This document shows, piece by piece, positions 27,689 to 31,292 of a stretch of DNA of 64,000 bases. Made by a program: the position numbers and the translations under genes. This DNA comes from Caldithrix abyssi DSM 13497 (lineage in GTDB: Bacteria; Electryoneota; AABM5-125-24; Hatepunaeales; Hatepunaeaceae), in NCBI GenBank assembly GCA_945865405.1, contig CAMBDS010000001.1, positions 186,001 through 250,000 of the forward strand. The letters are read 5' to 3'. Below the pieces are notes generated by a model. It ran no database searches. It was not told the DNA's origin and saw nothing but the letters and a program-made list of their open reading frames with translations. Each line of letters starts with the position of its first letter. Position 1 is the stretch's first letter.

Positions 27689-27699
27689 CACTCCTTCTT

Positions 27700-27762
27700 G
27701 GAGGGCGGACTTTCAGTCCGCTCCAAACTAAATCAATTGCTGTCAGACTTAAGTCTGACAGC
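27700..27762. repeat. Class B-like hairpins before glgP
   Basis: GGAGGGCGGACTTTCAGTCC type (about 27,702-27,724) and TGTCAGACTTAAGTCTGACA (about 27,740-27,759). They explain the spurious upstream extension of the glgP frame. Confidence 0.6.
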
Positions 27763-27781
27763 AGATAAATCGGACACACGA

Positions 27782-30328
27782 ATGAAAGTCAAGTCCTTCA
27801 ATGTCATCCCGAAGCTTCCTCCCGCTCTGATGCCTCTGCGTGAGATTGCCATGAACACTTGGTTTACCTGGAACTGGCCCGCCGCCCAGCTTTTCCTCCG
27901 CCTCGACCCGCAGGCGTGGGAGCACCACCGCCAAAACCTCGCCGCAATGCTCGGTAGTCTCTCGCAGGAATTCTTGAACGAAGCATCCCGGGACGATAGC
28001 ATCGTCGCCAACCTCAATCGAGTTTATGCGCAACTTCAGGAATACCTTACGGGTAAAACCTGGTTTAATGAGAATCACACTGAAGCCAACGATTTGAAGG
28101 TTGCTTACTTCTCGATGGAGTTCGGGCTTGGCGTCGGTTTGCCAATCTACTCCGGGGGCTTGGGAATCCTTGCAGGCGATCACCTGAAATCTTCAAGCGA
28201 CTTGGGGCTGCCATTGGTCGGCGTTGGATTGCTTTATCAACAGGGCTACTTCGAGCAGTACCTCAACTCAGATGGCTGGCAGGGCGAGCGCTACCCCGTC
28301 AACGACTGGTATAACATGCCTGTCACGCTTCTGAAAGACGATCAGCATCGCAACATCACCGTTACGGTCGATCTCGCCGGAGAACAGCTTCTAGCCCGCA
28401 TCTGGCGCGTTTCGGTTGGAAGGACATGCCTCTATCTTCTCGACTCTAATGTCCCCGAAAACCCGCCTCACTTGCGGGTATTGACGGCTCAACTCTACGG
28501 CGGTGACCGTGAGAATCGCCTCCGGCAGGAGATCCTGCTCGGTATCGGTGGGATAAGAGCTTTGGAAAAACTCGGCTACTCACCGACCGTCTATCACATG
28601 AACGAAGGCCACTCGGCGTTTCTGGCCCTCGAGCGGCTGCGGGTTATGATCCTGCGTCAAGGTTTCACTTTCGAGCAGGCTCGCGAACTGGTCTGGGCGT
28701 CGAATGTCTTCACCACTCACACACCCGTTCCCGCCGGGAACGAATCGTTCGACCTCGGTTTGGTGAAGAAATACTTCGAGCCAATGGCTGGCGATCTTGG
28801 GCTTAGCTATGACCAGTTTCAGCGACTTGGCCAGGAGGATCCGGGGCATAGCCCAAGTTTCTCGATGACCGTCCTCGCGCTGAAGCTCGCCGCCAACTGC
28901 AACGGCGTCTCCGAACTGCACGGGCAGGTCTCTCGCAAGATGTGGCGCACGATCTGGCCCGGTCTGCCCGACTTCGAGATCCCGATTGGGCACATCACCA
29001 ACGGCGTCCATATCCGAAGCTGGATCAGTCACGACATGGAGGAACTATTCGTCCGCTACATAGGCCCGCAATTCCTCGATGAAAACTGGTCGCGTCGCCA
29101 CTGGGATCGTATCGACGCGATCCCGGATGGTGAGCTTTGGCGCATCCATCAGATCCGCAAGGAACGCCTTATCTTCTTCACCCGCAAGAAAATGCGCGAC
29201 CAATTGAAAAGTCGGGGTGCCGGATCATCCGAACTGAAAGCCGCCGAAGAAGTCCTCTCCTCCAACGCTCTGACGATTGGCTTCGCCCGCAGATTTGCTG
29301 GCTACAAACGCGCCGATCTGATGCTGACCGACATCGAACGGCTGAAGGACATCCTTGACGGCTCGACCCGCCCTGTGCAGATCATTATGGCAGGAAAAGC
29401 TCATCCTGCCGACAACCCCGGCAAGGAGATGATCCGCAAGCTGATTCACTTCGCGTCTGATCCGTCCGTCCGGGATAAGTTCGTCTTCCTCGAAAACTAC
29501 GACATCAACGTCGCTCAATACATGGTGCAGGGCGTCGATATCTGGCTGAACAACCCGCGCAGGCCGCTCGAGGCTTCCGGCACATCAGGCATGAAAGCTG
29601 CGGCGAACGGTGCCTTGAATGTATCGACGCTTGACGGCTGGTGGGCGGAGGCTTATACCCCGGAGGTTGGCTGGGCGATTGGGTCGGGCGAGACGTACCT
29701 CAACACCGACGAGCAGGATCGCGTCGAGTCGCACGCTCTCTATCATCTGTTTGAGCACGAAGTTGTGCCGCTATACTATGACCGCGACCGCACGGAGATG
29801 CCACGCCGCTGGATCAAGATGATGAAGAACTCGATGAAGACGCTTGGCGCTCAGTTCAACACCGGTCGGATGGTGCAGGAGTACGCGGAAAAACTATACC
29901 TTCGTGCTCATAAGTACGGGCAAAACCTGACAGACAATAATCTTGAAAACGCGAAAAAGGTTGCCGCTTGGCGGATCAAAATGGGAAGTCAGTGGAACGC
30001 GGTGTCGCTTATTTCGGAAGAGCTCGACGCCGATCATGAGGTCCTTTCGGGCGAAGAGTTTCCGGTGCGGGTCAATGTCTATCTTGGTGAAATCGCAGCA
30101 GATGACGTTGCGGTGGAGGTGCTATACGGGGTGATGTGTGACGACCAGGCGATGTGCGAAGGCGTCCCGGTGCGGCTGATGTATCGCGGCACGACCGACG
30201 GGCGGGCGGTCTTCGAGGGCAGCCTTCCGACTCGCGCAACGGGCAGGCACGGGTACGCGGTGCGGGTCAGGCCCGAGAACCCCGACCTTGTCCATCCGTT
30301 GACACCGCTGGTGATGACTTGGGAGTGA
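27782..30328 (+). CDS. glgP: Alpha-glucan (glycogen) phosphorylase, GT35, short bacterial type
   Basis: An 848-residue phosphorylase that releases glucose-1-phosphate from alpha-1,4-glucans. The N-terminal segment MPLREIAMNTWFTWNWPA is the DUF3417 signature of the TIGR02094-type phosphorylases, followed by FSMEFGLG, NEGHSAF, FTTHTPVPAGNE, the active-site AGKAHPADNPGK and the PLP-lysine motif ASGTSGMKAAANG. A C-terminal beta-rich extension of about 120 residues follows. The ATG at 27782 is preferred; upstream codons are hairpin repeats. With OtsA/OtsB it suggests glycogen and trehalose as linked carbon stores. The last bases run straight into REP-type repeats. Confidence 0.93.
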   Translation: MKVKSFNVIPKLPPALMPLREIAMNTWFTWNWPAAQLFLRLDPQAWEHHRQNLAAMLGSLSQEFLNEASRDDSIVANLNRVYAQLQEYLTGKTWFNENHTEANDLKVAYFSMEFGLGVGLPIYSGGLGILAGDHLKSSSDLGLPLVGVGLLYQQGYFEQYLNSDGWQGERYPVNDWYNMPVTLLKDDQHRNITVTVDLAGEQLLARIWRVSVGRTCLYLLDSNVPENPPHLRVLTAQLYGGDRENRLRQEILLGIGGIRALEKLGYSPTVYHMNEGHSAFLALERLRVMILRQGFTFEQARELVWASNVFTTHTPVPAGNESFDLGLVKKYFEPMAGDLGLSYDQFQRLGQEDPGHSPSFSMTVLALKLAANCNGVSELHGQVSRKMWRTIWPGLPDFEIPIGHITNGVHIRSWISHDMEELFVRYIGPQFLDENWSRRHWDRIDAIPDGELWRIHQIRKERLIFFTRKKMRDQLKSRGAGSSELKAAEEVLSSNALTIGFARRFAGYKRADLMLTDIERLKDILDGSTRPVQIIMAGKAHPADNPGKEMIRKLIHFASDPSVRDKFVFLENYDINVAQYMVQGVDIWLNNPRRPLEASGTSGMKAAANGALNVSTLDGWWAEAYTPEVGWAIGSGETYLNTDEQDRVESHALYHLFEHEVVPLYYDRDRTEMPRRWIKMMKNSMKTLGAQFNTGRMVQEYAEKLYLRAHKYGQNLTDNNLENAKKVAAWRIKMGSQWNAVSLISEELDADHEVLSGEEFPVRVNVYLGEIAADDVAVEVLYGVMCDDQAMCEGVPVRLMYRGTTDGRAVFEGSLPTRATGRHGYAVRVRPENPDLVHPLTPLVMTWE

Positions 30329-30381
30329 GGGCAACGAACAACGAGCTCGCAGAAATTCAAATCAATGCCGACAAGTTGACT

Positions 30382-30491
30382 GTACGTAACGCCACCATCC
30401 TGGTGGCAAAGGGGAAGACTGCCGTCAGGATTCGAAACGCCACCATCTTGGTGGCACCGGAGGAGAATGCCGTCACGATGACGGCGGTACG
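30382..30491. repeat. REP array 1, directly upstream of and including the transposase start (class H)
   Basis: Two 48-bp units begin at 30,385 and 30,433, each with a GCCACC-(5 nt)-GGTGGC hairpin and a GCCGTCA half. The array ends in a second hairpin, GCCGTCA-cga-TGACGGC, then GGTACG. The transposase ATG (30478) lies inside the last unit. Confidence 0.85.
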
Positions 30492-31209
30492 AACACGGGG
30501 TTATTTGCCGCATATTGAACTCCCTGGCGCGATATACTTCGTCACGTTTCGGCTCGCAGATTCTCTTCCAAGGCACATCGTTGAGAAATTTGCCGAGGAA
30601 AGACAAGTTTTGATGAACTTGCTAGGAACAAAATCCCGTAACGCCACCATCTTGGTGGCAAAGGGGAAGACTGCCGTCACGATTCGTAACGCCACCATCT
30701 TGGTGGCAAAGGAGAAGAGTGCCGTCACGATTCGTAACGCCACCTTCCAGGTGGCACCGGAGGAGAATGCCGTCACGATGACGGCGGTACGTGCCAAGCT
30801 CTTCCAACAGTTTGCCGAAGACTTCGATAAGCATCTTGATGAAGGTTGCGGTGAATCCGTTCTAATGTCTCCCGTCGCAGCGGGGATTGTTGAGTCTGCA
30901 TTAAAATTCTTTGACGGGGATCGTTACCGCCTTCATGCATGGTGTGTGATGCCAAATCATGTTCATATTCTGTTCGAGTTGATCGCCGGGAATAAGTTGA
31001 GTTCAGTCGTATCGAGTTGGAAATCCTTCACAGCCAATGAAATCAACAAAGCGGTTGGTCGCGAAGGTCGTCTTTGGCAGCGTGAGTATTACGATCATGT
31101 GATAAGAGATGATGAAGAGTATCGACGGATAGTCGAATACATCGAGTACAACCCTGAAAAGGCCGGGCTCATAAACTGGCGATGGCGCAGTGTTGTCTCG
31201 CTTCCGTAA
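30478..31209 (+). CDS. REP-associated tyrosine transposase (RAYT, Y1_Tnp) carrying an in-frame REP array
   Basis: A 243-residue HUH-type single-strand transposase. The N terminus RGYLPHIELPGAIYFVTFRL is typical of RAYTs; the HUH pair is His161/His163 in MPNHVHIL, the LWQREYYDHVIRD motif follows, and the tyrosine region is Y221-IE-Y224-NPEKAG. Residues 54-105 are encoded by three REP units in frame, dividing the protein between NLLGTKS and AKLFQQF. Without them the length is about 191 residues, within the usual range. ATG 30478 lies in the upstream REP array, and the stop codon TAA is supplied by the first unit of the downstream array. RAYTs cleave and join REP hairpins in single-stranded form. 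Confidence 0.9.
   Translation: MTAVRTRGYLPHIELPGAIYFVTFRLADSLPRHIVEKFAEERQVLMNLLGTKSRNATILVAKGKTAVTIRNATILVAKEKSAVTIRNATFQVAPEENAVTMTAVRAKLFQQFAEDFDKHLDEGCGESVLMSPVAAGIVESALKFFDGDRYRLHAWCVMPNHVHILFELIAGNKLSSVVSSWKSFTANEINKAVGREGRLWQREYYDHVIRDDEEYRRIVEYIEYNPEKAGLINWRWRSVVSLP
30637..30791. repeat. REP array 2, inside the transposase coding sequence
   Basis: Three units of exactly 48 bp start at 30,637, 30,685 and 30,733, followed by the terminal hairpin half ending GGCGGTACG. Forty-eight is a multiple of three, so each unit adds 16 codons (reading RNATILVAKGKTAVTI) without disturbing the frame. Confidence 0.9.
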
Positions 31210-31292
31210 CGCCATCATCTTGATGGCAATGAGAAAAACGCCACCATCTTGGTGGCAATGAGAAAAATGCCGTAAGGATGACGGCGCTACGT
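31205..31292. repeat. REP array 3, immediately after the transposase
   Basis: Two shorter units (GCCATCATCTTGATGGC and GCCACCATCTTGGTGGC hairpins spaced 31-32 bp) and a terminal ATGCCGT..GGATGACGGCGCTACG half. The first unit supplies the transposase stop codon at 31207-31209. Confidence 0.8.

Follow-up and report, generated by a model that had tools for sequence, protein, structure and literature searches.

A RAYT gene with an in-frame array of its probable cognate REPs, and related REP-RAYT-REP units inside host genes

The window analysed here is a stretch of 64,000 nucleotides from Caldithrix abyssi DSM 13497 (assembly GCA_945865405.1, contig CAMBDS010000001.1, positions 186,001-250,000), and the locus of interest, given below in window positions, is a predicted gene for a repetitive extragenic palindromic (REP)-associated tyrosine transposase (RAYT). 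Repeat mapping of the window placed three REP arrays there, one at the 5' end of the gene (A1, 30385..30491, plus strand), one inside its reading frame (A2, 30637..30791, plus strand) and one at its 3' end (A3, 31205..31291, plus strand), which is the arrangement that a preliminary description of this DNA had proposed. The coding sequence (30478..31209, plus strand) specifies a 243-amino-acid protein that by its sequence is a RAYT, a transposase of the HUH/Y1 tyrosine type. It matches the RAYT model NF047646 at 96.5 bits (cut-off, 80) and PF01797 (Y1_Tnp) at 46 bits, and the E. coli TnpAREP structure (PDB 4er8) was the top match by sequence and also in a Foldseek search with the predicted model. 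The HUH motif is present as NHVH at residues 160 to 163; N160, V162, H163 and Y221 are invariant among 42 homologues, H161 is nearly so, and every column that is invariant in that set is retained. The protein thus combines a Y1 HUH core, with HUH motif and tyrosine, with flanking inverted REPs that recur in the genome, as expected of RAYT/TnpAREP proteins.

The RAYT frame has no stop from 30154 to 31209 and so runs open through both A1 and A2, as had been noticed before. Its 5' part overlaps, in a different frame, the end of a preceding long open reading frame (ORF) at 27698-30328, which may be a glgP-type phosphorylase. The likeliest start, judged from the sequence, is the ATG at 30478, because in homologues the conserved YLPH motif comes a few residues after the start and a GGAGGAG run resembling a ribosome-binding site, itself inside A1, lies about 13 nucleotides upstream. 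The start codon would therefore lie in A1, as first described, although not at position 30382, which reads GTA and is no start. Since this ATG is within the last REP of A1, the start and the first five RAYT codons derive from that REP. The stop codon likewise falls in A3, as claimed earlier, where the TAA at 31207-31209 belongs to the conserved CGTAACG foot. No sigma-70-like promoter was found at the RAYT locus. A2 is also open on the minus strand, in ORFs of 70 and 98 amino acids (30622-30834 and 30501-30797), a by-product of the stop-free REPs.

All three arrays are built from one element. A left REP (CGTAACGCCACCATCTTGGTGGC), a spacer and an inverted right REP (reading CGTACCGCCGTCATCGTGACGGC) together form a REP doublet forming hairpins (REPIN) of 59 bp, or 58 bp in A3, which is the terminal unit of every array. 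A1 consists of a truncated 48-bp unit and a complete REPIN, A2 of two truncated units and a complete REPIN (48 + 48 + 59, 155 bp), and A3 of a 29-bp partial unit and the 58-bp REPIN; the inverted REPs that end A1 and A2 lie on the minus strand at 30469..30491 and 30769..30791. The preliminary description gave the units of A1 and A2 as exactly 48 bp, which is true of the repeated unit but not of the terminal one. The window has 7 occurrences of the left-REP pattern and 4 of the right-REP pattern, compared with 0.03 and 0.01 expected from dinucleotide shuffles. Mapped over the genome (G000), the 48-bp unit, a REPIN truncated midway through its right hairpin, is confined to the RAYT locus, while the 59-bp REPIN also occurs alone elsewhere (e.g., G000:C13:17524-17582), so that dispersed copies of two inverted REPs and a spacer are present, as in published REPINs and bacterial interspersed mosaic elements (BIMEs). 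Direct REP pairs with a spacing of exactly 24 bp are also numerous in this genome (C1:71657, C3:87177, C10:66697 and others), a layout unlike that of the REPINs of the window.

Across 44 genomic REPs of this type, the 7-bp stem is paired in 99.7% of cells and shows 48 double changes, compared with 12.2 in shuffles, and this covariation indicates that the hairpin is conserved as a structure. Instead of the canonical GT[AG]G, most feet read GTAA, GTAC or GTAT, at a distance of one base from the stem. Degenerate feet occur in published REP families, and those found here weaken the tie to the canonical REP type but not the assignment of the protein as a RAYT. The six other RAYT-like genes of the genome all lack this REP in about 1.5 kb on either side, or up to the contig end where that is nearer, which makes the window RAYT its natural partner. 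The three arrays are thus probably the cognate REPs of this transposase, in line with the earlier view of them as its substrate.

A2 is translated as part of a 52-residue insert (residues 54 to 105) that lies upstream of the HUH motif, between the first strand (beta1) and the HUH core, with a net in-frame gain of 156 bp; both the approximate size and the site had been correctly anticipated. An alignment over these residues showed the insert to be missing in about 90 homologues. By a motif-based measure the linker has 78 residues in the window RAYT and mostly 20 to 38 in homologues, and it has 26 once the insert is subtracted. The predicted model has helices at residues 32-50 and 101-122 and a core at a per-residue confidence (pLDDT) of 94 to 98, with the insert at a pLDDT of 46 to 62, and the model of an insert-free homologue has helices at 29-48 and 55-73 joined by a 6-residue turn, which is the insert site in the window RAYT. 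In these models the insert enlarges the short turn between the two helices of a hairpin, at a distance from the catalytic strands. There is no insert between the HUH motif and the tyrosine of the window RAYT. A weak match of the insert to a DGF-1 beta-sheet (E of about 0.04, below the cut-off) was rejected as a real domain; it arises from the repeated hydrophobic pattern. Three of the six frames of A2 have no stop, and the TAA of the REP foot immediately ends one forward frame, so an open frame across it takes some filtering and yet is not in itself improbable. The gain of 156 bp may be explained equally well by the 155-bp array plus one base or by a 3-bp CGT duplication.

The last 107 bp of A2 are 93% identical to A1, spacer included, while A3 is more diverged. 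A1 has two units and A2 three, and the spacers of the first and last units are common to both. These sequences are most simply explained if one array arose as a block copy of the other and gained or lost one unit. We consider it likely that A2 was copied from the flanking array and is an in-frame self-insertion that the gene tolerates. Self-targeting, as suggested before, is thus the best reading, given the A1-A2 identity and the insert-free homologues. On this reading the locus is a REPtron, a RAYT gene with cognate REP or REPIN elements on both flanks, and the RAYT gene itself has received a copy of the 5' REPIN array. The copying may have proceeded through cleavage and ligation of a single-stranded REP by the RAYT, whose action on single-stranded REPs is a published model (PMC2817692), or through recombination between arrays. 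The insert would have persisted since one REP strand is stop-free in the frame used, since the net gain is 156 bp and since its residues sit in a short inter-helix turn away from the catalytic strands. Its effect on the protein is probably neutral and not regulatory, and the insert-bearing enzyme would still be active.

Several points weigh against such a self-insertion. Neither an ortholog with an empty site nor the same array was found in 61 relatives and 39 genomes of the phylum, and with no empty site in close relatives the direction and the age of the copying stay unproven; viral contigs gave only one weak, partial relative. With the non-canonical GTAA and GTAC feet, the substrate link rests on proximity and covariation, and the activity of the enzyme is a prediction. 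The array could instead have inactivated the transposase, leaving a dead or dying gene whose frame is open by luck. The three stop-free frames of A2 make such luck not improbable in itself, and a single known copy gives no measure of selection, but the HUH and tyrosine motifs and all invariant columns are intact, neither side of the insert has a stop or frameshift, the net insert is a multiple of three and the core folds with high confidence in the model, and we find a dead gene unlikely.

Less likely again is a contingency device, in which the 48-bp units expand and contract in frame and tune transposase activity. A1 and A2 do differ by exactly one such unit, and an independent RAYT (L107) has 30-bp in-frame linker units. 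However, a spacing in multiples of three, which the preliminary description had thought special because 48 bp make 16 codons, is found also in the intergenic direct pairs at 24 bp, the 48-bp case is seen in one genome only and the insert is modelled at low confidence as a peripheral loop, so the idea that the copy number of the substrate tunes the enzyme found no support here. An assembly artefact that joined repeat copies seems hardly credible: the genome is a draft metagenome assembly of 43 contigs, about 90% complete, and the arrays resemble one another, but exact repeats at the locus reach 42 bp at most, every unit has private differences, the contig is 351 kb long and the same architecture was found in unrelated genomes.

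The tolerated self-insertion proposed for the window RAYT has parallels among Planctomycetota RAYTs. In L126 the 5' array and the linker REPIN share 96% identity along 50 bp, the arrays of L107 (5', linker and 3') all show a 30-bp spacing, and the linker and 3' REPINs of L116 have common arms of 24 and 30 nucleotides. On a tree of RAYT cores, built from 69 rows with few columns, linker REPs arose twice, in the window RAYT and in a strongly supported clade of L107, L116, L126, L125 and L130. The same linker site was thus hit independently in a RAYT clade of Planctomycetota and Verrucomicrobiota. Two members of that clade (L125:2-3685 and L130:2-3664) are helicase ORFs with a circularly permuted RAYT, in which the core precedes the N-terminal strand and REPs mark the junctions. 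Insertion of a circle that had been opened at the linker REP would give such an order. In another RAYT from the phylum of the window (L161:1153-1701), REP-like repeats follow the HUH motif, at the position known from the published subclass 2.4 cases.

Many of the RAYT homologues do not stand as genes of their own. In the 31 ORFs that we examined, host Pfam domains and the RAYT lie in one open frame, a result of homology and reading frame. By their Pfam domains the hosts include leucyl-tRNA synthetases (LeuRS; L065, L066 and L078), a ValRS/IleRS-type synthetase (L077), an alanyl-tRNA synthetase (L208), a CarB-type carbamoyl phosphate synthetase (L070), a chorismate-binding enzyme (L059), a FabA/FabZ-like protein (L196), flavoproteins (L067 and L088) and HsdR (L201), and Eco57I-type and DUF1156 methylases are also among them. 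The remaining nested ORFs are L057, L061, L063, L069, L071, L073, L082, L084, L090, L093, L096, L099, L100, L101, L103, L105, L106, L114, L115 and L118. A scan of seven of the host methylases with defence models gave matches to PglX, type IIG or HmaB. Hairpins with a stem of at least 7 bp lie just upstream of the nested RAYT in 29, just downstream in 30 and on both sides in 28 of the 31 ORFs, while 39 of 300 control windows of 165 bp farther out in the hosts contain one. Nested RAYTs also occur in isolates (L069 in Lamprocystis purpurea DSM 4197, L106 and L119 in Anaerophaga thermohalophila), where the hosts include PglX or type IIG restriction enzymes. In the FabZ-like host (L196:976-2130), GAMLL residues flank the RAYT on both sides and may mark a target duplication.

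In L078 the full-length LeuRS sequence resumes on both sides of the RAYT. The genomes of L065, L066 and L078 each gave a single strong match to the LeuRS editing domain, and this match is the RAYT-bearing ORF; weaker matches of 21 to 36 bits, on long ORFs, are probably other class I synthetases. Since the sole detectable LeuRS of these three genomes carries a RAYT unit, the fused synthetase must work or be processed. The nested units sit in their hosts much as inteins do, with no known splicing. We see about an even chance that the self-inserted array is one case of a wider habit of this RAYT subfamily, in which REPs readable in frame let the element live in coding sequences, those of essential host genes included, and that the window array may be preserved as a substrate and homogenized with the flanking arrays, as opposed to being a neutral scar. 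We found no description of REP-RAYT-REP units in frame in host genes, in a literature search that covered few subscription journals.

The preliminary description regarded an in-frame internal array as unusual, and this applies to its position and layout only. Quentin et al. (2018, PMC6006769) reported REPs in frame inside tnpAREP genes of subclass 2.4, generally between HUH and tyrosine. In both cases REPs stand in frame in the gene of the transposase to which they belong, within a variable region at its periphery, but the window insert lies between beta1 and the HUH core and is a tandem array of truncated REPINs. Di Nocera (2013, PMC3733652) described REPs within many ORFs and overlapping RAYT ends, with REP termini supplying stop codons. 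REPtrons and BIMEs (Nunvar 2010, PMC2817692; PMC3733652) share with the window a RAYT between inverted REPs and REPs that overlap its ends, give stops and occur in ORFs, and differ from it in the third, internal near-copy of the 5' array and in the foot, GTAA/GTAC here as opposed to GT[AG]G. Rickettsia palindromic elements, as far as they are cited in PMC3733652, are also retained in frame in coding sequences, but the gene that hosts the window array is the element's own transposase. The ShiLan domain (PMC11855218) resembles the nested RAYTs as an in-frame mobile insertion in a methylase gene and differs as an HNH endonuclease of a phage methylase, REP-free and with no Y1 transposase. The internal array thus extends a known phenomenon to a new site and layout and does not constitute a new kind.

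With this precedent the finding alone is a moderate surprise, which the context of the nested units raises. RAYTs are thought to be domesticated transposases, and we know of no demonstration that they move themselves. An array copied from the flank into a turn of the transposase itself would be sequence evidence for local REP copying and insertion, with frame and fold deciding which REP insertions survive. If true, whole REPtrons in frame in tRNA synthetases and defence methylases would add to inteins and introns a third means by which mobile DNA can reside inside essential genes.
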